Origin: an uncultured Hyphomicrobiales bacterium
Lineage (GTDB): Bacteria > Pseudomonadota > Alphaproteobacteria > Rhizobiales > Hyphomicrobiaceae
Assembly (NCBI GenBank): GCA_902826255.1
Contig: CADEEC010000021.1
Location: 1 to 33,784 of the forward strand
Direction: 5' to 3'
DNA: 33,784 nt
The notes under the pieces are model-generated. The model saw nothing but the letters and a program-made list of their open reading frames with translations. It ran no database searches and was not told the origin of the DNA. The position numbers and the translations under genes were made by a program. This document shows, in pieces, positions 3,410 to 28,408 of this stretch. How positions within the stretch are numbered: the stretch's first letter is position 1; every line of letters begins with the position of its first letter.

Positions 3410-3416
3410 CGACGCC

Positions 3417-4367
3417 ATGCTGCAGGTCCGGGTCCTCAAGAAAACACGCGAGGCGGTTGATATTCAGTCCCTCGAGCTGGGCAGCGTGGACGGCTCCGGG
3501 CTACCTCCCTTCACACCCGGCGCGCACATAGACGTCCACGTCACCCCGAACATCATCCGCCAGTATTCATTGTTGAATGGCCCTGCCGAGACCGCGGTCT
3601 ACCGCATCGCCGTTAAGCTGGAGCCGCAGTCGCGCGGCGGATCACGCCGCGTTCACGACGACATCCAGGTGGGGCAGGTGATCACGATCAGCGCCCCCCG
3701 CAACAATTTCCCGCTGCACGCGGACGCACCCTTCAGCTTGCTGTTGGCGGGCGGGATCGGGATCACGCCCATTCTCGGCATGGCGCGCCATCTTCAGGCG
3801 CAAGGCCGACCCTTCGCACTTCACTATTTCACCCGTGCGCCGGAGCACACCGCGTTTCGTGCGCTGCTGGCTGAATCGGGCATGGCCACGTCGGTCCACT
3901 TCCACGAGGGCGTCGAATTTGCGCAGGTGGAAGGCAGGCTCCATGAAATCCTGGGCGCGCGCGGCGAGGGTGCGCACCTCTACATGTGCGGCCCTAGGCC
4001 ATTGATGGATCTGGTTGCTGCGTTGTCAGCATCGTGGCCATCGGACGCGGTGCATCGCGAGGATTTCTCGGCTGACCCTACCGCCCTCATGCAGGAGGGG
4101 GACACGTTTAAGGTAAAGTTGGCGCGTTCAGGCGGCACCTATGAGGTGCCTGCGGGCGAGAGCATCGTCGATGTTCTGGCCAGGCACGGCATCGAGGTCA
4201 ATGTCTCTTGTCAGCAGGGCATCTGCGGCACCTGCCTGACCGCCGTGCTCGAAGGCACACCCGACCACCGCGATATGTATCTGACGGACGACGAGAAGGA
4301 GGAGGGCAAGCAGATGACGCCCTGCATCTCGCGTTCGAAGACTCCGTTGTTGGTTCTCGACCTGTAA
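3417..4367 (+). CDS. Phthalate-dioxygenase-reductase-like FMN/[2Fe-2S] oxidoreductase
   Basis: 316-residue reductase that would pass electrons from NAD(P)H through flavin and a plant-type [2Fe-2S] cluster to the Rieske oxygenase upstream. Domains in order: flavin-binding barrel (about 1-100, RQYSL at 48-52), NAD-binding domain (about 105-220, AGGIGITP at 111-118 and CGPRPLM at 191-197), and a C-terminal ferredoxin domain with C265, C270, C273 and C303. This FMN-NAD-[2Fe-2S] order is that of phthalate dioxygenase reductase and vanillate demethylase VanB. The start at 3417 lies seven bases after the oxygenase stop; an in-frame start at 3384 would overlap the oxygenase and add residues the family lacks. 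The pair forms a complete two-component oxygenase. Confidence 0.92.
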   Translation: MLQVRVLKKTREAVDIQSLELGSVDGSGLPPFTPGAHIDVHVTPNIIRQYSLLNGPAETAVYRIAVKLEPQSRGGSRRVHDDIQVGQVITISAPRNNFPLHADAPFSLLLAGGIGITPILGMARHLQAQGRPFALHYFTRAPEHTAFRALLAESGMATSVHFHEGVEFAQVEGRLHEILGARGEGAHLYMCGPRPLMDLVAALSASWPSDAVHREDFSADPTALMQEGDTFKVKLARSGGTYEVPAGESIVDVLARHGIEVNVSCQQGICGTCLTAVLEGTPDHRDMYLTDDEKEEGKQMTPCISRSKTPLLVLDL

Positions 4368-9632: not shown

Positions 9633-10586
9633 CTATTTATTGAGCCTGGGGATGATTTCGTGAGCAATGGCCTCGACCTGCTCCTTCTCGTATTTGTACG
9701 GAACGAAGATGATGCGATCGACCCCGGCCTCGAGGTGAGGCTTTAGCTGCTCGACGCATTCCTCCGGCGTACCCATGATCGCGCTGTCCATGGTCGACTC
9801 CGACCACGAGGCGTAGTCCCATTCTGTCTGCAGCCAATGCTTCATCGGCGCTTCGATCTTGTTGCGCGGCCCGATGCAGATAGGCAGCTGGTTGGTTGAG
9901 GTGAGTTCCGCAGGGTTGCGGCCCGCCTCCTCGGCGAAGGCGACGATCTTCGCCCAGGACTTCTTGAAGCTTTCAGGCGTGTAGTAGTAGGTGAGCCAGC
10001 CGTCGCCCTTGGTGGCCGCGCGCTTCAACACCGCATCGACGTAGCCGCCGATCAGGATGGGCGGATGCGGCTTCTGCACGGGCTTCGGGTAGAGAACGGC
10101 ACCGCGCAGGTTGTAGGGCAGATATTCACCGTCGACCCGCGGCTCGGTCCATAGCCGCTTCAGGATCTCCAGATCCCGCTCCATGATCTTGCCGCGCTTG
10201 GTGAAGTCGACACCTAGCGAGTCGAACTCGCGCTTGTACCAGCCGACGGCGGCGCCCAGCAGCAAGCGGCCGTTCGAGACGTGGTCGATGGTGGCCAGTT
10301 CCTTGGCCAGCAGCACGGGATTGCGCACAGGCATCACCAGAATGCCCGTGCCGACCTTGATTTTCTTGGTACGGGCGGCGATCGCCGTGAGGATGATCAG
10401 GGCTTCGTGGATCGGAAAATTGGGCTCGACGCCGAGCAGGATGTGGTCCCAGGCCCAGAGCGACTCGTAACCCAGCTCCTCCATGCGCACGCCGTAGTCG
10501 ATCAGCTCCGTCGCGCTCGGCATCTCGGGATACTTGGTGAAGTTCCGCATCGCGATGCCGAACTCAGTTTTCTTTTTCTTGCTCAT
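9633..10586 (-). CDS. LLM-class oxidoreductase, probably F420-dependent
   Basis: 317-residue luciferase-like TIM-barrel protein. GTGILVMPVRNPVLLAKELATID and NGRLLLGAAVGWYKREFDSLG (about residues 78-135), then PPILIGGYVDAVLKRAATKGDGW (about 180-200), are the pattern of the F420-dependent LLM subgroup rather than the FMN-dependent monooxygenases. Such enzymes transfer a hydride between F420 and an organic substrate. The neighbourhood supports F420 use: a full F420 biosynthetic operon and an NADPH:F420 reductase lie a few kilobases upstream on the same strand. The gene is the last of the operon that starts with the PLP enzyme and two CoA-transferase subunits. Which bond it reduces or oxidises is unknown. 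A flavin-dependent role cannot be excluded from sequence alone. Confidence 0.85.
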   Translation of the reverse strand: MSKKKKTEFGIAMRNFTKYPEMPSATELIDYGVRMEELGYESLWAWDHILLGVEPNFPIHEALIILTAIAARTKKIKVGTGILVMPVRNPVLLAKELATIDHVSNGRLLLGAAVGWYKREFDSLGVDFTKRGKIMERDLEILKRLWTEPRVDGEYLPYNLRGAVLYPKPVQKPHPPILIGGYVDAVLKRAATKGDGWLTYYYTPESFKKSWAKIVAFAEEAGRNPAELTSTNQLPICIGPRNKIEAPMKHWLQTEWDYASWSESTMDSAIMGTPEECVEQLKPHLEAGVDRIIFVPYKYEKEQVEAIAHEIIPRLNK

Positions 10587-14015: not shown

Positions 14016-16418
14016 TCAAGCCGATCGAGATGCCTCTGGATGAAGCACCGGCCCACGGTTCGGGCGGCCGTAGAGTGTGCTGCGCTGCAACGGGATACGG
14101 CCGGCCTGTTGGATGATGTTTTCCATATGTTCGGCACCGACTTCCTGGCCATGCACGGCGCCGGCCGCGCGGGTGATGGACTCGTCCATGAGCACGCCGC
14201 CCATGTCGTTGGCGCCGGCATCGAGGCACAATGCAGCGCCGTCGGGCCCCATCTTCACCCAGGAGGCCTGTACGCGGACGATGAGAGGGTCGAGGACCAG
14301 GCGGCCGACGGCGTGCATCAGCATGGCCTCGCGGAAAGTCGGTCCCTTGCGCGCATGGCCGCGCAGGTAGATCGGCGCTTCCATGTGGACGAAGGCAAGC
14401 GGCACGAACTCGGTGAAGCCACCCGTGCGCGCCTGCAGGTCGCGGATGCGCAGGAGATGGCGTGCCCAGTGACGGTAACCGTCGATGTGGCCGAACATGA
14501 TGGTGGCTGTGCTTTTGAGGCCGACAGCGTGCGCGGCTTCCATCACGTCGAGCCACTGCTCGGTCGAGATCTTGTCGGGGCAGAGGACGGCGCGCACCTC
14601 GTCATCGAGGATCTCGGCTGCCGTACCGGGCAGGCTGCCCAGGCCGGCCGCCTTGAGGCCGGCGAGATAGGTGCGCAGCGGTTGCCCCAGCGTGCTTGCG
14701 CCATTCCAGACCTCGAGCGGCGAGAAGGCGTGCACGTGGATATCCGGTGCAGCCAGCTTCACCGCCTCGACGATCGCGCGATAGGTGTGGCCGGTGTAGC
14801 CGGGACGGATGCCACCTTGCAGGCAAACCTCGGTGGCGCCGCGCTCCCATGCCTCTTGCGTTCGCTTCGCCACTTCCTCGAGGCCGAGATCGTAGGGCTT
14901 CTCGCGCTCGGCGAAACTGTGCCGGCCCTTGGAGAAGGCGCAGAACTTGCAGCCGTAGGTGCAGATGTTGGTGTAGTTGATGTTGCGGTTGACGACGTAG
15001 GTGACGACATCGCCCACCCGCTCCGCACGCAGCGCATCGGCGGCACGGCAGACGGCCGTGAAGTCGGCGCCGCGGGCGTTGAAGAGGGTGACGATATCTT
15101 TCTCCGAAAGGCGCTCGCCGCTGCCGGCCTGGGCCAGGATGTCCAGTACGGCCGGGGAGGCGCCGGAGCCTGAACGGACGCGCGCAACGTGTGCTGCAGG
15201 TGGCCGGTCGCCGGCACCGGGGGACCATGCGTCCTCGCGCGCATAACCCGCGGTGTCGCGCTGGCGAAGCACAGGGGTACGCAGGGCCGGATCGAGCCAT
15301 GGGCTCTCGGCTGTAGTGCGCGGCGTGTCGGGTAAGTATTCGGGATAGATGGCCAGGCGCTCGACGAGCGTGCGGCCAGCGGCCTCGGTGGCGCGTTCCA
15401 GATCGCGCAGATGCGGCCAGGGCGCCTCGGGGTTTACATGATCCGGCGTAACCGGCGAGACGCCGCCCCAGTCATTGATGCCGGCGCGCACGAGCTGGGC
15501 CAGCGCGGCCGGCTGCAGGTTGGGCGGCGCCTGGATGTTCATGGCGGGACCCAGGACGATACGCGCCACGGCGATGGTCCACAGATGATCGTCCAGCGAC
15601 GGCTCGACGGCGCCCGCCATGCGTGTGCCGGGCTTGGCGCGGAAGTTCTGGATGATCACTTCCTGGATGTGGCCATAGCGGTCGTGCAGATCGCGAATGG
15701 CGAGCAGCGACTCGATGCGCTCGGCGTGCGTCTCGCCGATGCCGATTAGGATGCCGGTGGTGAAAGGCACGCCAGCGCGGCCCGCGGCTTCCAGAGTGGC
15801 AAGACGGACTGCCGGGACTTTATCCGGGGAGCCGAAGTGCGGGCCGCCGCGCTCGGAGAGGCGTTGCGACGCGGTTTCCAGCATGATGCCCTGCGAGGCG
15901 GAAACCACCTTCAGGCGGCGCAGCCAAGATTCGTCCATCACGCCGGGATTGAGGTGTGGCAGCAGCCCGGTCTCGCGCAGAACTAGACCCGCACTCTTTT
16001 CCAGATACTCGAGCGTGGAGGCGGCGCCGAGCGCTGCGAGCGCGTCGCGGGCGGCGGTGTAGCGATCCTCCGGCTGGTCGCCCAGCGTAAACAGGGCTTC
16101 CTTGCAGCCTGCAGCCGCACCGGCGCGGGCAATGTCGAGAATGGCCTCGGGCGAGAGGAAATGCGGTTCCGATTTCGAGGGCGCGCGGGCGAAGGTGCAG
16201 TAGTGGCAGACGTCGCGACAAAGACGCGTCAGCGGGATGAACACCTTCTTGGAGAAGCTGACCGTGCGGCCGTGGCCGGCGAGGCAGAGCTTCTCCGCCA
16301 GGGCCATCAGGCGCGGCAGGTCCGTGCAGTTGGCAAGCGCAAGCGCTTCGCCGCGCGAGACGGGCTGGCCCGCTTCTGCCGCGTCGAGCGCGTCATCGAT
16401 GGAGGAAAGCGTCGTCAT
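14016..16418 (-). CDS. fbiC: 7,8-didemethyl-8-hydroxy-5-deazariboflavin (Fo) synthase, CofG-CofH fusion
   Basis: 800-residue fusion of two radical-SAM domains that together make Fo, the deazaflavin chromophore of F420, from tyrosine and 5-amino-6-ribitylaminouracil. The CofG half (about 1-390) has the cluster motif C67, C71, C74 (CRDVCHYC); the CofH half (about 430-790) has C486, C490, C493 (CTYGCKFC). The fused form is the one known from actinobacteria (FbiC); methanogens carry separate CofG and CofH. The start ATG overlaps the cofC stop (ATGA). It is the last gene of pxpA-npdG-cofE-cofD-cofC-fbiC. No terminator is evident between its stop and the next operon on the same strand, so some readthrough is possible. 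Confidence 0.95.
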   Translation of the reverse strand: MTTLSSIDDALDAAEAGQPVSRGEALALANCTDLPRLMALAEKLCLAGHGRTVSFSKKVFIPLTRLCRDVCHYCTFARAPSKSEPHFLSPEAILDIARAGAAAGCKEALFTLGDQPEDRYTAARDALAALGAASTLEYLEKSAGLVLRETGLLPHLNPGVMDESWLRRLKVVSASQGIMLETASQRLSERGGPHFGSPDKVPAVRLATLEAAGRAGVPFTTGILIGIGETHAERIESLLAIRDLHDRYGHIQEVIIQNFRAKPGTRMAGAVEPSLDDHLWTIAVARIVLGPAMNIQAPPNLQPAALAQLVRAGINDWGGVSPVTPDHVNPEAPWPHLRDLERATEAAGRTLVERLAIYPEYLPDTPRTTAESPWLDPALRTPVLRQRDTAGYAREDAWSPGAGDRPPAAHVARVRSGSGASPAVLDILAQAGSGERLSEKDIVTLFNARGADFTAVCRAADALRAERVGDVVTYVVNRNINYTNICTYGCKFCAFSKGRHSFAEREKPYDLGLEEVAKRTQEAWERGATEVCLQGGIRPGYTGHTYRAIVEAVKLAAPDIHVHAFSPLEVWNGASTLGQPLRTYLAGLKAAGLGSLPGTAAEILDDEVRAVLCPDKISTEQWLDVMEAAHAVGLKSTATIMFGHIDGYRHWARHLLRIRDLQARTGGFTEFVPLAFVHMEAPIYLRGHARKGPTFREAMLMHAVGRLVLDPLIVRVQASWVKMGPDGAALCLDAGANDMGGVLMDESITRAAGAVHGQEVGAEHMENIIQQAGRIPLQRSTLYGRPNRGPVLHPEASRSA

Positions 16419-17095
16419 GGGCCTTGCACGATTGCCTTGAAGGTATTTGCGCTGTGCGCGTGGAGAAAGGCATAGCGCGGATCGTTGCCCTTGGCTGCCA
16501 TCAAGCGCATCAGGTCGCCCGGATCGTCCACATCCATGGCTATGCCGGGAAGCTCGATCACGTTGCAGGGAAGCCCGCGCTCTGCCGCGAGGGATCGATG
16601 GCGCAGCAGGCTGCCGGGTCCGAAGCTCGGCTCGAACGCATCGGGCGGCGTCACAAGGATGGCGTTGGTGCCCTCGCCCTCGCGGTTGGGAACAAAAGCG
16701 ACGCGCGGAGAGTCCGTTATGAGAGCTTGCGCGACGAGCGCCCGAACCTCGTGGGCGGTCATGAGCGGCGCGTCGGCGGGCAGCGTCACGGCGTGTGCGG
16801 CGCCTTTTGCCCGCGCTGCGGCAAAGCCTGCGGCGACAGCGGCGCTGTGGCCCCGGCGTTCAGCCTCCTTCAAGACCTTGGCCCCGATGCTGCCGGCGAT
16901 CTGAGCGACGTGCTCGTCGGGCGTGACGACCAGCACAGTGCTGATCTCTTCGATCTGCTGCAACACCGCAATCACGTCCTCGAACATGATGAGCATGAGT
17001 TGGTCGCGCGCGCACTGCGGGAGGGCCGGCGCGAGGCGCTGCTTGACGTGGCCCAATGTCTTGACAGGGACGACAGCCCAGATCGAACCGCTCAT
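16415..17095 (-). CDS. cofC: Phospholactate/phosphoenolpyruvate/3-phosphoglycerate guanylyltransferase CofC (FbiD)
   Basis: 226-residue nucleotidyltransferase. The N-terminal VPVKTLGHVKQRLAP (about 9-23) is the GTP-binding signature of CofC; HAVTLPADAPLMT carries the metal-binding aspartates, and a later region (about 190-198) holds MDVDDPGDL. CofC joins GTP to a three-carbon phospho-acid (2-phospho-L-lactate, phosphoenolpyruvate or 3-phosphoglycerate, depending on organism) to give the donor used by CofD. Which acid is used here cannot be read with confidence. Overlaps cofD and fbiC by four bases each. Confidence 0.92.
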   Translation of the reverse strand: MSGSIWAVVPVKTLGHVKQRLAPALPQCARDQLMLIMFEDVIAVLQQIEEISTVLVVTPDEHVAQIAGSIGAKVLKEAERRGHSAAVAAGFAAARAKGAAHAVTLPADAPLMTAHEVRALVAQALITDSPRVAFVPNREGEGTNAILVTPPDAFEPSFGPGSLLRHRSLAAERGLPCNVIELPGIAMDVDDPGDLMRLMAAKGNDPRYAFLHAHSANTFKAIVQGP

Positions 17096-18075
17096 CGTGC
17101 CCCCGCTTGCAGCTTGACCCCACGCTGGCTTGCAAGTTTCGCGCAGAAGGCGAGGCAGAATTTGGCGAGGTCGATTCTGTCCGCAAGCGTGTGCATCACG
17201 GTGTTGGTCACGGTGGTTGCGAGTGGCAGCGCTGGCGCGGCGGCTTCATCGGTCTTGTCGATTACGAGGCCATCGAGAATGCCAACGTAATGCTCTGCAA
17301 TTGTGCGAATGTCCGGCGACAGACCGAGCTCGGCCATGATCTTTGCAGTAGGGCCTTTCAGCGCACGGCCGCCGATGATTGGCGTAACAGCGACGATGGG
17401 GGCGCCGCTGGCGCGCAGCGCTTCCCGCATGCCTGGCACGGCGAGGATCGGATCGATGCTGAGCCAGGGATTTGACGGGCATATGACGATGCCGGCGAGA
17501 TCAGGCCGGGACAAAGCGCTGACGATCTGCGGCGTCACGCGGGCTGCGTCCGCGCCGTCGTAGCGGATGTGCTGCACGACGGGCTGACAGCGGTCGCGCA
17601 CGAAATATTCCTGGAATGCGAGCGTGCCGGCGTCGCTGTCCACGACCGTGCGCACGGGCGTGTCGGCCATGGGCAGCACGCGGGCAGAAATGCCGAAGGC
17701 GCGGGCAAGATGGGCGGTGATCGCGGTCAACGTCTCGCCAGCGTGCAGACGCCGCGTACGCTCGACGTGAGTGGCGAGATCTTTGTCGCCGAGATTGAAC
17801 CATGTGGGGCCGCCGAGCGCGGCCGTGGATTCCATGAAGTTCCAGGTCTCGTCGCGGCGTCCCCAACCGGTCTCGGGGTTGACGAGATCGGCGAGCGTGT
17901 AGAGCGTGGTATCGACGTCCGGCGAGATCGCGAGCCCGAGATGCTCGAAATCGTCGCCGGTGTTGTTGATGACGGTGAGCTTCTCGCCGAGCAGGTGCGA
18001 GAGGCCGAGCGACAGTTTGGCGCCGCCGATGCCGCCGGAGAGCGCCACATACGTCGATGCGCCGTTGCTGCTCAT
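17092..18075 (-). CDS. cofD: 2-phospho-L-lactate transferase (F420-0 synthase)
   Basis: 327-residue CofD/FbiA. ALSGGIGGAKLSLGL at residues 11-25, the NNTGDDFEHLGL motif at 37-48 and SPDVDTTLYTLA next to it are diagnostic. It transfers the phospho-acid moiety from the guanylylated donor to Fo, giving F420-0 or its dehydro form. ICPSNPWLSIDPIL in the centre matches the conserved donor-binding region. Overlaps cofE and cofC by four bases each. Confidence 0.95.
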   Translation of the reverse strand: MSSNGASTYVALSGGIGGAKLSLGLSHLLGEKLTVINNTGDDFEHLGLAISPDVDTTLYTLADLVNPETGWGRRDETWNFMESTAALGGPTWFNLGDKDLATHVERTRRLHAGETLTAITAHLARAFGISARVLPMADTPVRTVVDSDAGTLAFQEYFVRDRCQPVVQHIRYDGADAARVTPQIVSALSRPDLAGIVICPSNPWLSIDPILAVPGMREALRASGAPIVAVTPIIGGRALKGPTAKIMAELGLSPDIRTIAEHYVGILDGLVIDKTDEAAAPALPLATTVTNTVMHTLADRIDLAKFCLAFCAKLASQRGVKLQAGAR

Positions 18076-18839
18076 CGGAACAGGTCCTGATGGCGGGGAC
18101 GCACGAGGGCGCGGGCGGGCGATGGGGGTGCCGTCCAGGTGAGGCCGCGAACGACCGCGGCCGGACGGCCTTCGGCGGCCTCGCCCATGACGAGCACGGC
18201 GGCCGCCGCGACCGCGTCGGCGAAACCCGTTTCGGTGACTTCTAGCGGGCGGCCGCTCAGGTCCTTCTCGCCGCGGCGATCGTGCAGGGCGGGGACGCCG
18301 GCTGCGCCGATGGCGAGGCCGACGGTGCCGAGGCGCCAGGCCCGGCCGGCGCTGTCGGAGATGACCACCCCGATGTCGGCTTTGAAGTGCGCGTCCAGGC
18401 GCTGCTTGATGCGGCGCGCGCTGTCGTCGGGATCGAGCGGCAGCAGGAGCACGCGCTGTCCGCGGTCGTTGGCATCGAGATTGGATTGGTCGATGCCGGC
18501 GTTGGCGATGACGAGGCCGTGCCGCGTCTCGACGATCAGCACGTTCGGCCGCGCGCGCACAACTTCGCTCGCCTCGGACAGGATGGCCTCGACGAGATGG
18601 ACATCCTTTTCCGTGGCGGCTGCGATCTCTTGAGCGTGGACACTAGGTGAAAGCCTGGCGAGGTCGAGGTAGCGGCCTTCGGCCTTGGAGACGATTTTCT
18701 GCGTGACGACCAGGACATCTTGCGCGCGCGGCGTGAGAGATGCGGCTTCGAGAGCGGCGATCAGCAACGTGGGAAGGTCGTCGCCCGGGCGCACCTGGGG
18801 TATGCCGCCGAGCGGCTTAATGGTGAGCTCACTGTCCAC
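18072..18839 (-). CDS. cofE: F420-0:gamma-glutamyl ligase, single-domain
   Basis: 255-residue CofE that adds gamma-linked glutamates to F420-0 using GTP. VISDSAGRAWRLGTVGLAIG (about 157-176) followed by a DRRGEKDLSGRPLEVT segment fits the family. It is a single-domain protein: the C-terminal nitroreductase-like FMN domain of actinobacterial FbiB, which reduces dehydro-F420-0, is absent and no separate copy is in the window. GTG start, nine bases after npdG. Overlaps cofD by four bases (ATGA). Confidence 0.93.
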   Translation of the reverse strand: MDSELTIKPLGGIPQVRPGDDLPTLLIAALEAASLTPRAQDVLVVTQKIVSKAEGRYLDLARLSPSVHAQEIAAATEKDVHLVEAILSEASEVVRARPNVLIVETRHGLVIANAGIDQSNLDANDRGQRVLLLPLDPDDSARRIKQRLDAHFKADIGVVISDSAGRAWRLGTVGLAIGAAGVPALHDRRGEKDLSGRPLEVTETGFADAVAAAAVLVMGEAAEGRPAAVVRGLTWTAPPSPARALVRPRHQDLFR

Positions 18840-18848
18840 CAGGGCTGT

Positions 18849-19499
18849 CTAGTCCGTAGCGATACCGGTAATGCGGATGCCGGCGCCGTCGACCTTGTAG
18901 TTGCGATTGATGCCGATGAGGACCGAAGTCAGCGCCTCGGCCGCAACGGAGTTGGCAAGTGGCCCTGCGTGCACACCGCGCAGGCCGGCGGCCTTGGCGA
19001 GGTCCGCCACGATGGCGCGATCCTTGGGCTCGTCGCCGAAGATGAGGACGTCGCAGTCGATGTCGATGTCCTGCTGCAGCTTGTGGCCGGCGACGTTGTG
19101 GAAGGCGGACACGAGGCGCACGCCGTCGCCGAGGCGGCGCTGGGCGGCCAGGGCTGCGGAGGTCTCGGCAGGGAGCTGCACGCGCGCCACCTTGGGCGGG
19201 ACGAGCGGCACCGTGGTGTCGACGACCAGCTTGCCCGCGATGTGCGGCTTGATCTCGTCTATGATTTGCGCGTGGGTGGCCCACGGCACGGTCAGGATGA
19301 CGATTTCGGCAGATTTCGCGGCATCTGCGTTGGAGGCGCCGGTGGCGCCCGGAAACGCGCGGGCCGCCTCGGCGGCCTTGGCTGCGTCGCGCGAGCCGAT
19401 CACGACGGGAAATCCCGCTTTCGCCCAGCGCCCTGCGAGGCCGGAGCCGAGCGTGCCGGTACCGCCGATGACGGCCAGTGTGGGCTTGCTGCTGCTCAC
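18849..19499 (-). CDS. npdG: NADPH:F420 oxidoreductase (NpdG/Fno type)
   Basis: 216-residue Rossmann protein. VIGGTGTLGSGLAGRWAKAG at residues 9-28 and the following VIGSRD (NADP specificity) are typical of the F420-dependent NADP reductases NpdG and Fno; the centre holds the family stretch VDTTVPL and SAFHNVAGHKLQ. It moves hydride between NADPH and F420 and so supplies F420H2 to the LLM oxidoreductase. In actinobacterial picrate degradation NpdG plays exactly this role for the F420 hydride transferases NpdC and NpdI. GTG start, overlapping the pxpA stop (GTGA), so it is translated with pxpA. Confidence 0.92.
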   Translation of the reverse strand: MSSSKPTLAVIGGTGTLGSGLAGRWAKAGFPVVIGSRDAAKAAEAARAFPGATGASNADAAKSAEIVILTVPWATHAQIIDEIKPHIAGKLVVDTTVPLVPPKVARVQLPAETSAALAAQRRLGDGVRLVSAFHNVAGHKLQQDIDIDCDVLIFGDEPKDRAIVADLAKAAGLRGVHAGPLANSVAAEALTSVLIGINRNYKVDGAGIRITGIATD

Positions 19500-20272
19500 G
19501 ACAGCTTCATCTCCGTCAACGGGACGTTCTTGATGCCGGCGGCGGCTAGCCCGTCAGCGATGGCGCGGGCGACGGCAACGCCGGTGGCTTCGTCACCGTG
19601 GACGCACAGGGTGTGTACGTCGATTTTGATCTTCTTACCACTGCGCGAGATGATCTCGCCGTCGCCGGCCATGCGCACGGCCTGCTCGGCAGCCGCCTTG
19701 GGGTCCTTCAGGACGACGCCCGGGTTGACACGCGAGGAAAGATTGCCGTCATCGTCGTAGAGGCGGTCCGGGAAGCTTTCGCGCGCGAGCGGCAGGCCGA
19801 GCCTCACGGCGGCCTTCTCCATCTCCGAGCCGTACAAGGCGACATAGATGATTTTTGGATCGACCGTCTTGATGGCGCGGCCGATGGCCATGGCATAGCC
19901 CTCGTCCTCGGCGGACATGTTGTTCAGGGCGCCGTGCGGCTTGAGGTGCGTGACCTTGAGGCCGGCGTAGCTCGCCATGGCCTGCAGGGCGCCGATCTGG
20001 TAGGCGACCATGTACTCAAGGTCGACCGGCCGCATCTGGATGCGGCGGCGACCGAAGCCCCACAAATCGTTGAAGCCGGGATGCACGCCGACGCTGACGC
20101 CCTCCTGCTTCGCCAGCATGCAGAGCCGGTGCATGCTGTTGGGATCTCCGGCATGGAACCCACAGGCGACGCTGGCGGATTTGATGATCTTCATGAGCTC
20201 GGCATCATTGCCGATGTTATAAGCGCCCCACCCTTCGGCGATGTCGGCATTGAGATTGATGGTTTTGCTCAT
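19496..20272 (-). CDS. pxpA: 5-oxoprolinase subunit A (LamB/YcsF family)
   Basis: 258-residue LamB/YcsF protein; LNADIAEGWG, ACGFHAGDP, GVHPGFNDLWGFGRR and LKPHGALNN are all conserved family blocks. With PxpB and PxpC it forms the bacterial ATP-dependent 5-oxoprolinase, which opens the lactam of pyroglutamate. Here pxpA is separated from pxpBC: it reads in the opposite direction across a 69-base gap and heads the F420 operon. That location suggests that the complex works on a lactam intermediate of the F420 pathway, not only on metabolic 5-oxoproline. AGGA lies about eight bases before the ATG. The operator at 20308 lies between the divergent genes. Confidence 0.92.
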   Translation of the reverse strand: MSKTINLNADIAEGWGAYNIGNDAELMKIIKSASVACGFHAGDPNSMHRLCMLAKQEGVSVGVHPGFNDLWGFGRRRIQMRPVDLEYMVAYQIGALQAMASYAGLKVTHLKPHGALNNMSAEDEGYAMAIGRAIKTVDPKIIYVALYGSEMEKAAVRLGLPLARESFPDRLYDDDGNLSSRVNPGVVLKDPKAAAEQAVRMAGDGEIISRSGKKIKIDVHTLCVHGDEATGVAVARAIADGLAAAGIKNVPLTEMKLS

Positions 20273-20307
20273 TGCAATCCTACGCTCCGGCTGATCAGAC
20301 CTATATG

Positions 20308-20323
20308 GTACTATTTATAGGAA
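20308..20323. promoter_or_regulatory. Predicted shared operator, copy 3 (divergent pxpA / pxpB promoter)
   Basis: GTACTA-TTTA-TAGGAA, the least symmetrical of the four related 16-bp sites. It is centred in the 69-base gap between pxpA (minus) and pxpB (plus) and could control both directions. It is flanked by an outer inverted repeat TATGGT (20304-20309) and ACCATA (20325-20330). Confidence 0.6.
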
Positions 20324-20341
20324 GACCATACAATCTCGCCT

Positions 20342-21106
20342 ATGGCCGACACCATGACCGAAAAAAGACGGGATGCACAAGCGCCGCGCTTCCTGGCCTG
20401 CGGCGATACGGCTTTGTGCATCGAATTCGGGGATCAGATCGATCGTGAGGTCAGCGCGCGGGTGCTGGCCCTGGCCGATCGGATACAGGCTGCCGGAATC
20501 GCCGGTGTCGTGGAGCTGGTGCCCACTTTCCGGTCACTGCTCGTGCATTACGATCCGTCCGTGGGCAGTCAGTCCGACCTCAGGGCGGCACTCGCGCCCC
20601 TGGTCGTCGACCTGGGTGCGGCGCAGGGTGCGAGCCGGAGGTGGAGGCTGCCGGCCTGCTACGACACCAGCGTCGCGCCCGATCTGGACGAGGTGGCTTC
20701 GCGCACGGGGCTGTCAGTGCAGCAGGTGATCGAGCGGCACAGTGCGGTGACTTATCACGTCTATATGCTGGGCTTTCTGCCCGGCTATCCCTATCTCGGC
20801 GACTTGCCGCCGGAGCTCGCTTTACCGCGCCGCGAGAACCCGCGCACGCGCGTGCCGCCGGGCTCGATCGCTATCGCAACCACGATGACCGCGGTTTATC
20901 CGCTCGAATCTCCCGGCGGCTGGCACCTCATCGGCCGGACGCCGGTGGCGCTATGGGATGTGCGGCGCGACCCGCCGGTGCTGCTCAGCGCCGGAGACAA
21001 GATCGAGTTCTCGCCGATCTCTGTGCGGGAATACGAGGAAATGGCGGCAAGAGCGGTAGCGGGTACGCTAACGATTGCCCCGGAAGGCCAAGGGGTGGTG
21101 TCGTAG
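20342..21106 (+). CDS. pxpB: 5-oxoprolinase subunit B (KipI/PxpB family)
   Basis: 254-residue KipI-like protein. GFLPGYPYLGDLP, PRRENPRTRVPPGSIAIA and YPLESPGGWHLIGRTP in the second half are the hallmark of allophanate-hydrolase subunit 1/PxpB. The N-terminal part (about 15-80, GDTALCIEFGDQI) is also conserved. The first 10-12 residues are extra; an ATG at 20354 would give a more usual length, and neither start has a good ribosome-binding site. Stop and the pxpC start are directly adjacent (TAG ATG). Confidence 0.9.
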   Translation: MADTMTEKRRDAQAPRFLACGDTALCIEFGDQIDREVSARVLALADRIQAAGIAGVVELVPTFRSLLVHYDPSVGSQSDLRAALAPLVVDLGAAQGASRRWRLPACYDTSVAPDLDEVASRTGLSVQQVIERHSAVTYHVYMLGFLPGYPYLGDLPPELALPRRENPRTRVPPGSIAIATTMTAVYPLESPGGWHLIGRTPVALWDVRRDPPVLLSAGDKIEFSPISVREYEEMAARAVAGTLTIAPEGQGVVS

Positions 21107-22165
21107 ATGCCGGCGCTCAAGGTCATCTCTCCCGGGCTGATGACGACGTTGCAGGATCTCGGCCGGCGCGGCTACCAGCGGCTGGGGATTCCCGTCTCAG
21201 GTGCCCTCGACGAGATCAGCCTGCGTGCAGCCAATCTGATCGCCGGCAACCCGGCAGCAATCGGCGCACTGGAGATCGCCTACCAGGGCCCGACCCTGGA
21301 GGTGGAAGCAGAGAGCGTGCGCGTCGCCTATGCCGGCGGGGGGGCGGCCGTGGAGGTCTTGTCGAGCGCCGGAGCCGCGGAAGCGAGGCGCCTGCCGCCG
21401 TTGCAAAGCGTGCGCCTGACGAAGGGACAGGTCGTCCGCATCGGTGCGCTGTCGGGGAGCCCGATCGGCTATCTCGCCGTAGAGGGCGGGTTCGATGTAC
21501 CGTTGGCGCTCGGCAGCCAATCGACCTACATGCGCGGCGGTCTTGGCGGATTTGCCGGCCGGGCCTTGCGATCCGGCGACCTTCTTGGCCTCAAGCGGCC
21601 GCAGGCCGACGCCCGTGATGAGCGCATGCTGGCCTCCGTCGACCTGACGCCCCCGAAGCGCATCCGGGTCGTGTTCGGGCCGCAGGACGACTATTTCACC
21701 GCCAAGGGGAAGCATACGCTCGGCGAGAGCGAATACACGGTGACGCCCGCTTCCGACCGCATGGGCATGCGGCTCGATGGGCCACCCTTGGAGCACGCCA
21801 AGGGCTATAACATCGTCTCGGACGGGATATCGCCGGGCTCCATACAAGTGCCCGGAAACGGCGTGCCGATCGTGCTGCTGGCGGACCGGCAGACGACCGG
21901 CGGCTACCCCAAGATCGCCACCGTTATCTCTGCCGACATGCCGGCGTTGGGCCGCCTCGCGCCGGGGGCTAAGGTTGCGTTCGAAGCTGTGGACATCGCC
22001 GCCGCCGAGGCCGCCCACCGGCAGTTCCGGGACGGGCTCGAGCGGATGGCGAAAAGCGTCGCGTCCGTGCGCCCGGCGGCGGCTGTCGACGAAAGCAAGC
22101 TGCTAGGGTCGAACCTGGTCAGCGGAGTGGTGAGTGCCTGGAACTGGCAAGAAGTGGATGTCTGA
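21107..22165 (+). CDS. pxpC: 5-oxoprolinase subunit C (KipA/PxpC family, biotin-dependent carboxyltransferase-like fold)
   Basis: 352-residue allophanate-hydrolase subunit 2/KipA-like protein. ISPGLMTTLQDLGRRGYQRLGIPVSGALDEISLRAANLI at the N-terminus, VFGPQDDYF in the middle and DGISPGSIQVPGNGVPIVLLADRQTTGGYPKIA in the second half are family blocks. It is the catalytic partner of PxpB in opening lactams with ATP. The protein is of normal length and all blocks are intact. It ends 72 bases before the GntR regulator on the same strand, so the two may be cotranscribed. Confidence 0.92.
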   Translation: MPALKVISPGLMTTLQDLGRRGYQRLGIPVSGALDEISLRAANLIAGNPAAIGALEIAYQGPTLEVEAESVRVAYAGGGAAVEVLSSAGAAEARRLPPLQSVRLTKGQVVRIGALSGSPIGYLAVEGGFDVPLALGSQSTYMRGGLGGFAGRALRSGDLLGLKRPQADARDERMLASVDLTPPKRIRVVFGPQDDYFTAKGKHTLGESEYTVTPASDRMGMRLDGPPLEHAKGYNIVSDGISPGSIQVPGNGVPIVLLADRQTTGGYPKIATVISADMPALGRLAPGAKVAFEAVDIAAAEAAHRQFRDGLERMAKSVASVRPAAAVDESKLLGSNLVSGVVSAWNWQEVDV

Positions 22166-22237: not shown

Positions 22238-23008
22238 ATGGGTAAGGACCGCCGCATGGCCAGCAGTGCACGCAAGGCGACAGCCTTCCAGACAGCAGAC
22301 AGCCGGGTGCCGCGATACCTTCAGGTGGCGTCCGTGCTGCGGCGGCGCATCCGCGACGCACAATGGGCCGTGGGCGACAGGATCGCCACGCTCGAGGAGC
22401 TGGAGAAGGAATTCAACGTGGCGCGCGTGACGGTGCGCCAGGCCATCGAGCTTTTGCAGAGCGAAGGGCTTGTGAAATCCTACCAGGGCCGCGGCACGTT
22501 CGTGACGAAGACGGTCGAAAGCGACCGCTGGATGCAACTCGCCACCGACTGGGAAAGCCTGATCGCGCCGATCCGCGATCACGTTCCGCAGGTGCTGCCG
22601 TCGGAGCCACGCCCTGTGCCGCGCCTCGAGGAGGATGACGGTACCCCGGCACCGGCCTACGTGTTCCTGCGCAGCATCCAGAAGCGTGCGGGCAAGCCCT
22701 ACGCCTATGCCCGCGTGCACATCGCCAAGCATCTCTATGCCAAGGCGTCGAAGCAGTTCTCCTCGCGTGTCGCGCTGGCTGTCCTCTCCGAGATAAAGGG
22801 CGCCGCGATCGCGCGCGCGCACCAGACCGTGGTGGTCGGCGCCGCCGACATCGAGGCCGCGCGGCATCTCGGCATTTCCCTGAATTCTCCGACGGCCGAG
22901 GCGCGGTGCGTCGTCAGCGACAAGGACGGCATGGTGCTCTATATCGGCGAGATCACCTATCCGGGCGATTACGTGCGCCTCAACATCGAGCTGATCGCGC
23001 AAGACTGA
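22238..23008 (+). CDS. GntR-family regulator with UTRA domain (HutC subfamily)
   Basis: 256 residues: winged helix-turn-helix of GntR type at about 22-90 (LRRRIRDAQWAVGDRI, EFNVARVTVRQAIELLQSEGL, YQGRGTFV), then a UTRA effector-binding domain to the end. HutC-type members are usually repressors released by a pathway metabolite. The gene lies inside the catabolic cluster, between pxpC and the molybdenum hydroxylase, and four related palindromes stand before the cluster's transcription units, so it is the best candidate to bind them. No such palindrome is seen directly before this gene. The start could also be ATG 22256, with AAGGA upstream. Confidence 0.88.
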   Translation: MGKDRRMASSARKATAFQTADSRVPRYLQVASVLRRRIRDAQWAVGDRIATLEELEKEFNVARVTVRQAIELLQSEGLVKSYQGRGTFVTKTVESDRWMQLATDWESLIAPIRDHVPQVLPSEPRPVPRLEEDDGTPAPAYVFLRSIQKRAGKPYAYARVHIAKHLYAKASKQFSSRVALAVLSEIKGAAIARAHQTVVVGAADIEAARHLGISLNSPTAEARCVVSDKDGMVLYIGEITYPGDYVRLNIELIAQD

Positions 23009-23124: not shown

Positions 23125-25470
23125 GTGACAGGGCAGGGCATCGGCGCGCGGCTGCTGCGCAAGGAAGACGAGCGCTACATGCGCGGCCGCGGCCAGTATG
23201 TGGGCGATATCCGCCTTCCGGGCATGCAGGAGGTGGCGTTCCTGCGCAGCCCGTTGGCACATGCGCGCATCAAAGCCATCCACATTCCCGATCGCATTCG
23301 CGACCGCGTGTTCATTGCCGCCGATCTGGACGGTGTGGCAGCGATCCGCGCGGATACGGCGCTTCCCGGCTTTAAGTCGTCGGTGCAACCGGTGCTCGCC
23401 ACCGACAAGGTGCGCTACGTCGGCGAGACGGTTGCCATGTGCATCGCGCCGACGCGCGCGGAGGCCGAGGACCTGGCCGCCGAGATCGACGTCGAATTCG
23501 ACGCCTTGCCGGCCCTGCACGACATGCTGGCTGCGCGCAACGCAGGCGCTGCGCTGGTGCATGAGCACTGGGGCGACAACCTGTTTCTCCCCACCAGCAC
23601 GGATGTGGACTTCGAAGCCGTAAAGGCGAAGGCGGCGTTCTCCGTGACGCGCGAGCTCAGGACCGCGCGGCAGGCGATGTGCCCGCTGGAGGGCCGCGGC
23701 GTCATCGCCGAGTGGAACTCGCGGCTCGAGCAGCTCGTCGTCACCAGCTCCACACAGCAGCCGCACATCGTGCGATCGGGGCTCGCCGAATGCCTCGCCA
23801 TCGACGAGGGCAGCATCCGCGTGGTGGCGCCCGATGTTGGCGGCGGCTTCGGCTACAAGGGCATCCTGCTGCCCGAGGAGGTCGCGTTGGCGTGGGCGAC
23901 GCGCAAGCTCGGCGTTCCGCTGCGCTGGCTGGAGGATCGGCGCGAGAACCTGATCGCCGGCGCCGACTGCCGCGAGCATCACTACATCCTCACGGCCTAT
24001 GCGGATCGCGACGGCCGCCTGCTGGGGCTCGACTGCGAGGCGACCGTGGATTCCGGCGCCTACTCTGCCTATCCGTTCTCGGCCTGCCTGGAGGCGGGGC
24101 AGATCGGCTCGATCCTGCCGGGTCTCTACGATTTCCCACATTACCGCTGCCGCACCTATTCAGTCGCCACCAACAAGCCGCCAATTCTGCCCTATCGCGG
24201 CGTGGCGCGTACCGGCGTGTGCTTTGCGTTGGAGGTGACGCTCGACGCGCTGGCGCGCGAGGTCGGCATCGAGCCGAACGCGCTGCGGTTCAACAGCCTC
24301 GTGCAGCCCGAGCAGATGCCGTTCGACAACATCGCCAAGCGCCATTTCGATTCCGGCAACTACCCCGACGCGCTGCGCCAGGCGGTCGAAGCCATCGGCT
24401 TCGACAAGGTGCGTGACCGCCAGACGCAGGGCGAGGCTGACGGGCGCCGCATCGGCATCGGCTTCTCGATGTACGCCGAGCAGGCAGGCCACGGCACCAG
24501 CGTCTACGCGGCCTGGGGCATTCCGTTCGTGCCGGGCTACGAGCAGTGCCAGGCGCGCTTCACGCCCGACGGCGGGTTGGAACTGCGCATCGGCGCGCAC
24601 AGTCACGGCCAGGGGCTGGAGACGACGCTGTCGCAGGTCGCGCATTCGATCCTGGGCGTGCCGCACGAGCGCATCAAGGTCGTGCACGGCGACACCGCCG
24701 AGACACCCTATTCGACAGGCACCTGGGGTTCGCGCTGCATGATCATGTCGGGCGGCGCGGTGGCGACTGCGTGCGAGGAACTGGGCGAGCGCGTGCTCGC
24801 GATCGGGGCGAAGCTGCTGCAGGCGCGGCGCGAGGATGTGCGCATCGAGGGCGCCGATGTGGTCAGCCCTTCGGGTAAGGTGGCGGTCGCGGAAGTGGCA
24901 CGCACCTGGTACCGGCGCCCGCAGGACCTGCCGCCCGATGTCAATCCGGGCGGGCTGGAACTGACCGCGGGCTACAAGGCCAAGCGCGACACGGGCACGT
25001 TCAGCTATGCCGCGCATGCGGCCGTGGTGGCGGTGGAGCCGGACACGGGTGAGGTCGAGATTCTCGACTACGTGGTGGTCGAGGACGGCGGTGTGCTCGT
25101 CAATCCGATGATCGTGGACGGCCAGATCATCGGCGGCTGCGCGCAGGGCATCGGCACGGCGCTGTACGAGGAGATGCCCTACGACGCGCAGGGCCAGCCG
25201 CTCGCCTCCACGCTGTCCGACTACATGCTGCCGGGGCCGACGGAGGTGCCCGAAATCCGCATCCTGCATACGGAAACGCCGTCGCCGTACACGCGCTTCG
25301 GGCAGAAAGGCATCGGCGAGGGGGGTGCGATTGCGCCGCCTGCCGCCATCACCAACGCCATCAACGACGCGCTTAAGGATATCGGCGCCGAGCTCGTTGT
25401 TTCGCCGATTTCGCCGCGGCGGATCGCGGAAGCCATTGCGCGCGCCAAGCCCAAAGCGGCGGCAGCATGA
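23125..25470 (+). CDS. Xanthine dehydrogenase-family molybdopterin-binding large subunit
   Basis: 781-residue molybdenum hydroxylase large subunit. GIGARLLRKEDERYMRGRGQY at the N-terminus, VGGGFGYKG (about 241-249), PYRGVARTG (from P356) and GQKGIGEGGAIAPP with the likely catalytic base E732 are visible. The AYXCSFR active-site loop of true (form I) CO dehydrogenase is absent; PYRGVAR stands in its place, so this is a hydroxylase of an organic substrate, probably a C-H next to nitrogen or a carbonyl. GTG start with GGGGG upstream. It overlaps the FAD-subunit gene (ATGA). Family sure; substrate unknown. Confidence 0.92.
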   Translation: MTGQGIGARLLRKEDERYMRGRGQYVGDIRLPGMQEVAFLRSPLAHARIKAIHIPDRIRDRVFIAADLDGVAAIRADTALPGFKSSVQPVLATDKVRYVGETVAMCIAPTRAEAEDLAAEIDVEFDALPALHDMLAARNAGAALVHEHWGDNLFLPTSTDVDFEAVKAKAAFSVTRELRTARQAMCPLEGRGVIAEWNSRLEQLVVTSSTQQPHIVRSGLAECLAIDEGSIRVVAPDVGGGFGYKGILLPEEVALAWATRKLGVPLRWLEDRRENLIAGADCREHHYILTAYADRDGRLLGLDCEATVDSGAYSAYPFSACLEAGQIGSILPGLYDFPHYRCRTYSVATNKPPILPYRGVARTGVCFALEVTLDALAREVGIEPNALRFNSLVQPEQMPFDNIAKRHFDSGNYPDALRQAVEAIGFDKVRDRQTQGEADGRRIGIGFSMYAEQAGHGTSVYAAWGIPFVPGYEQCQARFTPDGGLELRIGAHSHGQGLETTLSQVAHSILGVPHERIKVVHGDTAETPYSTGTWGSRCMIMSGGAVATACEELGERVLAIGAKLLQARREDVRIEGADVVSPSGKVAVAEVARTWYRRPQDLPPDVNPGGLELTAGYKAKRDTGTFSYAAHAAVVAVEPDTGEVEILDYVVVEDGGVLVNPMIVDGQIIGGCAQGIGTALYEEMPYDAQGQPLASTLSDYMLPGPTEVPEIRILHTETPSPYTRFGQKGIGEGGAIAPPAAITNAINDALKDIGAELVVSPISPRRIAEAIARAKPKAAAA

Positions 25471-26276
25471 AACCGGCACCCTTCGCTTACGAACGGCCGG
25501 CAACCTTGAGCGAGGCCGTGCGCATCCTGGCGGACGTGCCGGGCGCGAAAGTCCTGGCCGGCGGACAAACGCTGGGGCCGATGTTGAATCTGCGGCTCGC
25601 GCAGCCGGAGATGATCGTCGATATCGGCCGCATCCCGGAGCTCGCGGAAGTCACGGAAACCGCCGGCGCGATCAGCATTGGCGCGACCGTAACGCATGCC
25701 GCGATCGAGGACGGCCGCGTGAGCGATCCGGCCGGCGGATTTCTCAGGCGCGTCGCGAAGGGGATTGCCTATCGCGCGGTCAGGACGCGCGGCACCATCG
25801 GCGGCAGTCTCGCGCATGCCGATCCGGCGGCCGATTGGCTCTCGGCCTTGACGGCGCTTGGCGCCGAGGTGGTGCTCTCGGGATCGCACGGATCGCGCAC
25901 CGTGGTGCTGGCGGAGTTCGCGCGCGGCGCCATGCAGGCGGATATTGCTGCGGATGAGATCGTCGTGGCTGTGCGCGTGCCGAAATTCTCGCGGGCTTCG
26001 CGATTTGCCTATCACAAGATTTGCCGCAAGACGGGCGAGTTCGCGGAGGCGATCGGCGTCGCCGTGGACGATCCCGAGCGCGGCGTCCGCCGCCTCGTCG
26101 CGGGCGCGACGGAGGGGCGGCCGATTGTCTTGAACCTGGAGCGCGACCTCATATCCCTGAGCGTGGCGGCGCTGGAGGAAGCCTTGTCGGCGTCGGGATA
26201 TGTCGCGGACGCCTACGTCTTGAAATTACATGCGGTTGCGCTGCACCGCGCCTGCCAGGAAGCATCGGCGTTATGA
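25467..26276 (+). CDS. Xanthine dehydrogenase-family FAD-binding medium subunit (CoxM-like)
   Basis: 269-residue FAD-binding subunit. AGGQTLGPMLNLRLAQP at 31-47 and TIGGSLAHADPAADW at 110-124 are the two FAD-binding motifs of CoxM/molybdopterin-dehydrogenase FAD subunits; a CO_deh_flav_C domain follows to the end. It passes electrons from the iron-sulfur subunit to an acceptor. Its ATG overlaps the large-subunit stop and its stop overlaps the next start, so the three subunits are made together in the order L-M-S. Confidence 0.92.
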   Translation: MKPAPFAYERPATLSEAVRILADVPGAKVLAGGQTLGPMLNLRLAQPEMIVDIGRIPELAEVTETAGAISIGATVTHAAIEDGRVSDPAGGFLRRVAKGIAYRAVRTRGTIGGSLAHADPAADWLSALTALGAEVVLSGSHGSRTVVLAEFARGAMQADIAADEIVVAVRVPKFSRASRFAYHKICRKTGEFAEAIGVAVDDPERGVRRLVAGATEGRPIVLNLERDLISLSVAALEEALSASGYVADAYVLKLHAVALHRACQEASAL

Positions 26277-27502
26277 AGATCTCGCTCACGCTCAACGGCA
26301 GACCGGTGCAGGCGGACGTCGCGCCGCGCACCAACCTCGCCGATTTCATCCGTGAGCAGATGCTGCTCACCGGCACGCATGTCGGCTGCGAGCACGGCGT
26401 TTGCGGCGCCTGCACCGTCGAGATCGACGGCGAAATCGCGCGCTCCTGCATCACCTATGCCGTGAGCTGCGACGGTGCGCGCGTGCGCACCATCGAAGGC
26501 TTCGACGACGATGCGCTGATGGCACGCCTGCGCACTGCCTTCACCGAGGAGCACGCGCTGCAGTGCGGCTACTGCACGCCGGGCATGTTGGTGGCTGCGC
26601 GTGATCTCGTGCGCCGGAAATCTGCTCTGTCGCGCGCCGAAATCCGCACCGAGATGAGCGGCAACCTTTGCCGCTGCACCGGCTACATGGGAATCGTCAG
26701 CGCCATCGAGCGCGTGATGAACGACGGTGACGTGCAGCGGGAGGCGCGCCAAAGCACGTGGCTCGGACCGGCTCCGGGTCCGCAGGTATCCAGCGCCTCG
26801 GCCGAAGCATCCCCTGCAGCTGTCCTGCAGCGGCCGGCCGCCAGACCTGCAGCACCCCTGCAGCCCCGACCGCAGCGCGCGCCGGCGCGCCGCGTTGCCG
26901 TCACCGTCGGCGAGGTCGAGGAGAAGGACGGCATCGTCAATCTTGCGCAGAGCTTTGTTCTTGCCCATCCGCGCGCGGAGGTCTGGCGTCTCCTCTCCGA
27001 TCCGCAGGCTGCCGCCGCGTGCATGCCGGGCGCCTCACTCGATGGACCGCCCGTGGACGGCAAGGTGAAGGGCCGCATGGAGGTGAAGCTCGGCCCGGTT
27101 GCGGCGTCCTTCGCGGGCGAGGGCACGGTTACGCAGTATCCGCAAGAATTTCGCCAGGTGATCGAAGGCCAGGGCGGGGACAAGAAGAGCGGATCGCGAG
27201 TCAGGGGCCGGGTCGACTACCGCCTCACGGAAACCGCGAGTCCGGATGGAACGCCCGCGACCCGCGTCGATGTGCTCATCGGCTACGGCCTCACCGGCAT
27301 GCTGGCGCAGATCGGGCGCTCCGGCATCGCCCGCGATCTGGCGCGCCACATGGGCGAGGTGTTCGCCCAGAACATCGACGCGGCGCTCACCGATCCCGCG
27401 TCGGTTCCTGCCGGGCAGGGTGGTATCAGCGGAATCTCCCTCGCTTTCGCTCTCATTTCAGAGCGTGTGCGCGCCCTCCTCCGGCGCGTGGTGGGCCGCT
27501 GA
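26273..27502 (+). CDS. [2Fe-2S] small subunit fused to a CoxG (SRPBCC) domain
   Basis: 409-residue fusion. Residues 1-160 are a standard xanthine-dehydrogenase-family small subunit with the plant-type cluster C39, C44, C47, C59 and the second cluster C98, C101, C133, C135. Residues about 160-215 form a Pro/Ala/Gln-rich linker. Residues about 220-370 are a CoxG/SRPBCC domain (SFVLAHPRAEVWRLLSDPQAAAACMPG), and the tail (about 380-409) is hydrophobic then basic (LAFALISERVRALLRRVVGR). CoxG is usually a separate protein, thought to bring CO-dehydrogenase-type enzymes to the membrane and to quinone. The fusion would tether this enzyme to the respiratory chain. Start ATG 26273 overlaps the stop of the FAD-subunit gene. 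Confidence 0.9.
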   Translation: MKISLTLNGRPVQADVAPRTNLADFIREQMLLTGTHVGCEHGVCGACTVEIDGEIARSCITYAVSCDGARVRTIEGFDDDALMARLRTAFTEEHALQCGYCTPGMLVAARDLVRRKSALSRAEIRTEMSGNLCRCTGYMGIVSAIERVMNDGDVQREARQSTWLGPAPGPQVSSASAEASPAAVLQRPAARPAAPLQPRPQRAPARRVAVTVGEVEEKDGIVNLAQSFVLAHPRAEVWRLLSDPQAAAACMPGASLDGPPVDGKVKGRMEVKLGPVAASFAGEGTVTQYPQEFRQVIEGQGGDKKSGSRVRGRVDYRLTETASPDGTPATRVDVLIGYGLTGMLAQIGRSGIARDLARHMGEVFAQNIDAALTDPASVPAGQGGISGISLAFALISERVRALLRRVVGR

Positions 27503-27637: not shown

Positions 27638-28408
27638 ATGAGCAAGACGCCTTCGGACGCCGGCTTCTGGGACCCCGTCGATCTTCTTCACACTGCGCGC
27701 GCAGGGGATCCCAAATCCACCTGGTCGTTGTTCGACACGGCCCTCACCAAGGCGGGCTTCCAGAACAGCTTCTTCGCCTACGGGGTGCCGATCGACTCCA
27801 AAAACCCTCTGCTCGATAAGTTTCAAACCGGCATCTTCGGCGGCGGCCGCTTCTCGACCGAGTTCTTTCCCGAGCTCGTCAAGCGCCCGGACCTGCTCGC
27901 CCAGGATCCGGTGGCACCGCACTGCAAGGGTTCGCTCACGCCCTATGTCTGGTCGTGCTCGCAGTTGCAGCCGCGCGAACAGGGTCCGCTGCCGCTTGCC
28001 TACGACTTCGATCTGCGCTCCTTCATGGTCTTCCCGTTGCGCAACGGCGATGCCACGCGCTACGGCAATTTCACGGTCTACTGCGAGGACGCCCGCCACA
28101 AATCGTGGCTCAGGCATGCGCATCGCTTCGCGCCGCTGCTCCATGTCACCGCGCAGTTCCTGCACGACAGCCTCGCCGGCCTGGAAGCGGCCCCGCCCGG
28201 CATGGAGCCCGTCACGCTTTCGCCGCGTCAGCGCGAATGCCTGCTGTGGGCCAGCCGCGGCTGCTCCACCAAGAAGATCGCCGAGCGCCTCACGCTGTCG
28301 GAGCCCGTGGTCAATGAGTACCTGCGCTCGGCCAAGCAGAAGCTCGGATGCGCCACCCGCACCCACGCCGTCGCCCGCGCCATCCGCCTCGACCTGATCA
28401 AGCCTTAG
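27638..28408 (+). CDS. LuxR-type transcriptional regulator with autoinducer-binding-like domain
   Basis: 256 residues: an N-terminal autoinducer-binding-like domain (about 20-175) and a C-terminal LuxR helix-turn-helix (about 190-250: LSPRQRECLLWASRGCSTKKIAERL). In the ligand pocket the D-P pair (D90, P91) and W105 of TraR-type receptors are present, but the positions aligned with TraR Trp57 and Tyr61 appear as F77 and V81, so the ligand may not be a standard acyl-homoserine lactone. No luxI-type synthase is in the window, so this is a LuxR solo here. AGGAG precedes the ATG. It lies 135 bases after the molybdenum hydroxylase operon and could sense a pathway compound or be unrelated. Confidence 0.85.
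   Translation: MSKTPSDAGFWDPVDLLHTARAGDPKSTWSLFDTALTKAGFQNSFFAYGVPIDSKNPLLDKFQTGIFGGGRFSTEFFPELVKRPDLLAQDPVAPHCKGSLTPYVWSCSQLQPREQGPLPLAYDFDLRSFMVFPLRNGDATRYGNFTVYCEDARHKSWLRHAHRFAPLLHVTAQFLHDSLAGLEAAPPGMEPVTLSPRQRECLLWASRGCSTKKIAERLTLSEPVVNEYLRSAKQKLGCATRTHAVARAIRLDLIKP

Follow-up and report, generated by a model that had tools for sequence, protein, structure and literature searches.

The window, the whole stretch of 33,784 nucleotides analyzed here, contains a gene in which the [2Fe-2S] small subunit of a molybdenum enzyme (CoxS) is joined through a linker to a CoxG domain. Our best reading is that the gene represents the known CoxG coupling in a covalently fused, widespread form. The literature searched contained no description of a CoxS-CoxG fusion and no assay of membrane binding or quinone reduction with a fused protein; the key CoxG paper and the HpdA paper lay outside that search, and an earlier mention is possible. 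On whether furoyl-CoA dehydrogenase (HmfABC) is a known case of such a fusion, the same search gave no deciding evidence.

Table 1. Positions in the window of the fusion gene, its parts, and the adjoining genes.
Feature	Position	Strand	Basis or remark
F420 cofactor genes (FbiC-like radical SAM, CofC, CofD, F420 ligase, F420-dependent NADP oxidoreductase)	14016-19499	-	
5-oxoprolinase-like pxpA, pxpB, and pxpC	19496-22165	pxpA -; pxpB, pxpC +	Adjoin the enzyme; conserved in near relatives
GntR/UTRA regulator	22238..23008	+	Pfam; in near relatives, kept on the upstream side of the enzyme genes; 10 loci have it close to the fused enzyme
Molybdopterin large subunit, CoxL-like, motif PYRGVARTG	23125..25470	+	Ald_Xan_dh_C, MoCoBD_1, MoCoBD_2; nearest solved chain 1t3q_B
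FAD subunit, CoxM-like	25467..26276	+	FAD_binding_5, E 2.7e-48; 4-base overlap with both neighbors
CoxS-CoxG fusion gene, 409 aa plus stop	26273..27502	+	Open frame; Pfam domains; fused in 80 of the 112 loci fetched
[2Fe-2S] small-subunit domain, residues 1-160, two clusters	26273..26752	+	Fer2, Fer2_2; nearest solved chains 1n5w_A, 1t3q_A; eight invariant Cys
Pro/Ala-rich disordered linker, residues 161-209	26753..26899	+	pLDDT 44-60 over 161-200; mean pairwise identity 0.21; P+A 44%; in relatives, 12-60 residues within the aligned region
CoxG (SRPBCC fold) domain, residues 210-373	26900..27391	+	PF06240; phmmer 8uds_D, E 9.7e-14; Foldseek 8uds, TMt 0.90, rmsd 1.7
Hydrophobic-basic C-terminal helix, residues 387-409, probable membrane anchor	27431..27499	+	Helix 387-407; conserved composition; 8uds title

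The fusion gene runs from ATG to TGA, with neither a stop codon nor a frameshift in the linker. The start codon shares bases with the stop codon of the FAD-subunit gene (ATGA), and the FAD-subunit gene likewise overlaps that of the large subunit; these overlaps suggest that the L, M, and fused SG genes are translationally coupled. On the encoded protein, Fer2 (residues 6-59), Fer2_2 (73-146), and COXG (228-372) all scored above the Pfam gathering cut-offs, COXG with 43.8 bits against 22.2. The two [2Fe-2S] domains carry the eight cysteine ligands of a xanthine-oxidase-family small subunit, and these residues (Cys 39, 44, 47, 59, 98, 101, 133, and 135) are invariant across 59 fused proteins. 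The window protein has 14 Ala and 10 Pro among 54 linker residues. The production of free CoxG from an internal start was rejected, since no in-frame ATG, GTG, or TTG occurs from residue 154 to the CoxG domain. A preliminary description had proposed a single open frame through a flexible Pro/Ala-rich linker to a hydrophobic-basic tail; all of this was borne out, and its domain boundaries, which nearly coincide with those of the AlphaFold2 model, are correct to within about 10 residues.

The genes for the molybdenum and FAD subunits lie in the same operon, as in the xanthine-oxidase family, and the fusion gene is best explained as encoding the [2Fe-2S] member of a molybdenum hydroxylase heterotrimer belonging to that family. 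The solved chain nearest to the large subunit belongs to quinoline 2-oxidoreductase (487 bits). The active-site loop lacks the AYxCSFR form with the Cu-ligating Cys of form I CO dehydrogenase, and its PYRGV motif is common to all relatives compared (PFRGV in one). The NCBIfam models for CO dehydrogenase large subunits remained below their cut-offs (NF040766, 548.6 bits versus 950; TIGR02416, 461.7 versus 991). On the missing copper-cysteine loop and these scores, we rejected CO dehydrogenase as the identity of the enzyme. The partner is a molybdenum hydroxylase, probably of an N-heterocycle.

The operons of the nearest relatives adjoin varying subsets of the GntR/UTRA regulator, pxpABC, the F420 genes, and a branched-chain-type ABC transporter. 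Hydroxylation of an N-heterocycle to a lactam, followed by ATP-driven opening of the lactam by PxpABC, would fit this neighborhood. In five other loci (L034, L035, L039, L040, and L048), genes for F420 oxidoreductase, cofE, cofD, and fbiC are among those adjoining the same molybdenum enzyme. The F420 genes hint that the same catabolic pathway includes a step dependent on F420; in the window, a luciferase-like monooxygenase (9633-10586) accompanies the set. Farther upstream, a Rieske oxygenase with a LigXa-type C-terminal domain stands beside a reductase with a ferredoxin domain (2033-4367, forward strand), and an HpcH/HpaI aldolase-type gene occupies 305-1969; together, these genes look like aromatic-ring catabolism. 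A LuxR-type regulator with an autoinducer-binding domain (27638-28408, forward strand) lies directly downstream of the fusion gene.

An AlphaFold2 model was built from the 59 fused proteins. It is confident for the FeS part up to about residue 160, disordered over the linker, and confident again for the CoxG fold (pLDDT 80-98 over 210-373), which is followed by a separate C-terminal helix of lower confidence (pLDDT 60-73). In the PDB, the FeS part matched the small subunits of quinoline 2-oxidoreductase and CO dehydrogenase. The modeled CoxG domain aligned with Mycobacterium smegmatis CoxG (8uds) at 31% identity, a match also obtained by sequence; the COXG-type structures 2ns9 and 2pcs came next. 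As modeled, the window domain is a true CoxG fold. The PDB title of 8uds reads 'CoxG from M. smegmatis, minus lipid anchoring C-terminus'.

The mean pairwise identity among the 59 fused proteins was 0.67 in the FeS part, 0.39 in the CoxG domain, 0.32 in the tail, and lowest in the linker. The tails consist of 44% ILMFVW residues with a mean net charge of +3.6 (+3 in the window helix). From these values, the linker resembles a spacer, and the tail a module. Ten core positions of the CoxG domain (W238, C250, P252, G253, G274, P275, F280, G282, G342, and Q346) are common to the fused, adjacent, and stand-alone forms. Where a separate coxG directly follows coxS, the protein ends in the same type of helix, for example LDLGNLFWKMLWSRIRGWL in L046. 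A C-terminal helix of the same type was found in two genomes (L114 and L115) that encode CoxG elsewhere, with none adjoining the enzyme genes; the query for this genome-wide search differed slightly from the window protein over its first dozen residues, and its matches begin at query residues numbered at least 12. Since it is kept in both fused and separate CoxG, the anchor-like helix belongs to the CoxG module, whether fused or not. Four separate CoxG proteins of Paraburkholderia/Caballeronia (L043, L046, L106, and L111) have a long Ala/Pro-rich stretch after the CoxG domain and before the C-terminal helix, as though the spacer now sat on the opposite side of the domain. The amphipathicity of the tail was dropped as a stand-alone proof: 15% of shuffled versions reach its hydrophobic moment, and therefore only the conservation of the tail counts. 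On this conservation, the helix is probably a membrane anchor.

The fusion is a recurring architecture in Alpha- and Betaproteobacteria, common rather than rare. Among 112 fetched loci, including that of the window, both domains share one frame in 80 and occupy two frames in 12, and the FeS part stands alone in 20; one further locus (L003) was moved to the two-frame class by a family HMM. An even sample of the class to which the window belongs contained the fusion in 17 of 385 genomes, its own genome counted, and a sample of the phylum in 11 of 398, one of the 11 lying outside that class. Carriers include Rhodoplanes, Bradyrhizobium, Methylopila, Reyranella, Paraburkholderia, Caballeronia, and Burkholderia, and matches spanning both domains were found on plasmids of Sinorhizobium meliloti, Variovorax, Methylobacterium, and Paracoccus. 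The deposited annotations of S. meliloti pSymA and Variovorax SRS16 give a single CDS, '2Fe-2S iron-sulfur cluster-binding protein', in an L-M-SG operon. A frameshift or assembly artefact was rejected on the single frame at the 80 loci. These counts do not bear out the implication of the preliminary description that the architecture is unusual.

Several clades keep coxS and coxG as separate genes. In unfused relatives whose coxG comes immediately after coxS, the order is L-M-S-G, so the loss of one stop codon could create the fusion. Near relatives such as L092, whose large subunit is highly similar, have no CoxG at the locus; the L092 genome encodes a CoxG homologue elsewhere. Since close relatives have a separate CoxG or none adjoining the enzyme genes, the fusion is not needed for this type of enzyme. 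In a large-subunit tree built by a quick method, with several long branches, the fused state does not form one clade and requires 5 changes; scoring fused, adjacent, and absent as states gives 6 changes compared with a shuffled mean of 17.2, and the tree is compatible with either direction of gain and loss. A single-origin clade of fusions is unsupported, given these 5 changes. Fusion may have arisen by stop loss between neighboring coxS and coxG in an L-M-S-G operon and may revert by stop gain. In Bradyrhizobium sp. C9 (L112), the frame breaks inside the linker and the nearest relatives are fused, probably reflecting a sequencing frameshift that also enters the tree.

In Oligotropha carboxidovorans, coxG mutants still make cofactor-complete CO dehydrogenase, and their generation time on CO rises from 21 h to 149 h, about 7x slower; CoxG was proposed to act by membrane recruitment (PMC4240915). 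The CoxG-like proteins of Sulfolobus recruit a quinone-linked dehydrogenase, G3PDH, to the membrane, and this enzyme reduces quinone in vitro without CoxG (PMC11962113). According to a 2026 survey that follows Kropp 2025, CoxG is a membrane protein that binds menaquinone and delivers electrons to the quinone pool (PMC13240472). The statement that CoxG-type proteins are usually separate is supported, as is their link to membrane and quinone (PMC4240915, PMC11962113, and PMC13240472).

We consider it rather likely that the tethered CoxG module anchors the enzyme at the membrane and hands ubiquinone to its FAD. Electrons from substrate hydroxylation at Mo would pass through the two [2Fe-2S] clusters to the FAD of subunit M. 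With its C-terminal helix in the membrane and its flexible linker on the enzyme, the CoxG domain would bring this soluble enzyme to the inner membrane, where it would present bilayer ubiquinone to the FAD site. The linker would replace the docking of a free CoxG with a fixed 1:1 partner that is always near. In enzymes of the xanthine-oxidase type, the expected site of quinone reaction is the FAD of the neighboring M subunit; for CO dehydrogenase, this is stated in PMC4240915. With the reaction expected on M and not on S, the flexible linker is what would let the CoxG domain reach the FAD. The analysis shows the fusion, its domains with their modeled folds, its spread, the gene order of unfused relatives, and a partner other than CO dehydrogenase; we infer that the tail binds the membrane, that quinone is bound and receives the electrons, and what the substrate is. 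Support is stronger for anchoring than for the quinone step. The intact overlapping frames, the domains, the 8uds-like fold, the helix in fused and separate CoxG, the shared core positions, the L-M-S-G relatives, and the published findings on CoxG (PMC4240915, PMC11962113, PMC13240472) argue for the tethered module; the tail pLDDT of 60-73, the 15% of shuffles, the L092 locus without CoxG, and Sulfolobus G3PDH (PMC11962113) argue against it. Of the proposal that the fusion builds quinone delivery into the enzyme, a built-in CoxG function is the most natural reading, and quinone delivery itself stays putative, given Sulfolobus G3PDH (PMC11962113) and the relatives without the fusion.

Anchoring alone is a serious rival to quinone delivery. 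The CoxG part might be a membrane anchor only, with the FAD reducing quinone directly or by collision and the SRPBCC cavity holding a lipid or nothing. This agrees with the Sulfolobus G3PDHs, which need CoxG for membrane binding and not for quinone reduction (PMC11962113), with the recruitment proposed for O. carboxidovorans CoxG (PMC4240915), and with the conserved hydrophobic-basic tail. For anchoring, the tail alone would suffice, yet the SRPBCC domain and its motifs are kept, and the domain matches a CoxG described as quinone-binding (8uds; PMC13240472). We regard anchoring as the sole function as rather unlikely. Far less probable is that the cavity takes up, instead of quinone, a maturation ligand or a hydrophobic compound that the hydroxylase converts or releases. 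SRPBCC/Bet v 1-type folds do bind many large hydrophobic ligands (PMC2577659), and the partner is a catabolic hydroxylase rather than a CO dehydrogenase; however, the domain resembles the CoxG of CO dehydrogenase despite the differing substrates, which points to the side that the enzymes share, the electron acceptor, and the cofactor-complete enzyme of the O. carboxidovorans mutants argues against maturation (PMC4240915). That the frame is continuous only by sequencing error, or that the domains are split after translation into two separately working proteins, is highly improbable: L112 shows the reverse, a break where sister species are fused, so errors do occur, and several clades keep separate genes, but the 80 fused loci come from many independent assemblies and complete plasmids, and the internal start codon is missing.

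A large group of non-CO proteobacterial molybdenum hydroxylases might be built-in quinone reductases, whose own tethered CoxG pulls membrane ubiquinone to the FAD so that N-heterocycle hydroxylation feeds the respiratory chain directly; we propose this reading only tentatively. The spread of the fusion suggests that many 'xanthine dehydrogenase family' enzymes are quinone-linked, and their true electron acceptor may have been missed because the CoxG half goes unannotated. Since the fusion is common, a single gene of this kind will not surprise a database reader. Studies of CoxG have concerned a stand-alone partner of CO dehydrogenase. With CoxG naturally joined to the electron-transfer subunit, the enzyme that it serves is fixed, and the idea of a quinone shuttle becomes open to a direct test within a single polypeptide.

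Among known systems, M. smegmatis CoxG (8uds) and its Mo-CO dehydrogenase (8uem) share with the window the SRPBCC/CoxG fold, a C-terminal segment that is a probable anchor in the window protein, and an L-M-S molybdenum enzyme as partner. The mycobacterial CoxG is a separate protein that serves CO dehydrogenase, whereas the CoxG of the window is fused to the S subunit of an enzyme that is not one. In O. carboxidovorans (coxBCMSLDEFGHIK), unlike in the window, coxG is a separate gene away from coxS and the enzyme is a true CO dehydrogenase with a Cu-Mo center. HpdA, the four-component 3-hydroxypyridine dehydrogenase of Ensifer adhaerens HP1, has a CoxG homologue proposed as its membrane anchor (cited in PMC11962113), like the role predicted here. 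Quinoline 2-oxidoreductase (1t3q) is the nearest solved enzyme to the large subunit and among the nearest to the FeS domain, but its small subunit, 1t3q_A, has 168 residues and lacks a CoxG domain. The fused proteins of Sinorhizobium, Variovorax, Caballeronia, Bradyrhizobium, Rhodoplanes, and others have the same architecture and L-M-SG order as the window; they differ in linker length and sequence and in neighboring genes, with an overall identity to the window protein of 38-59%.
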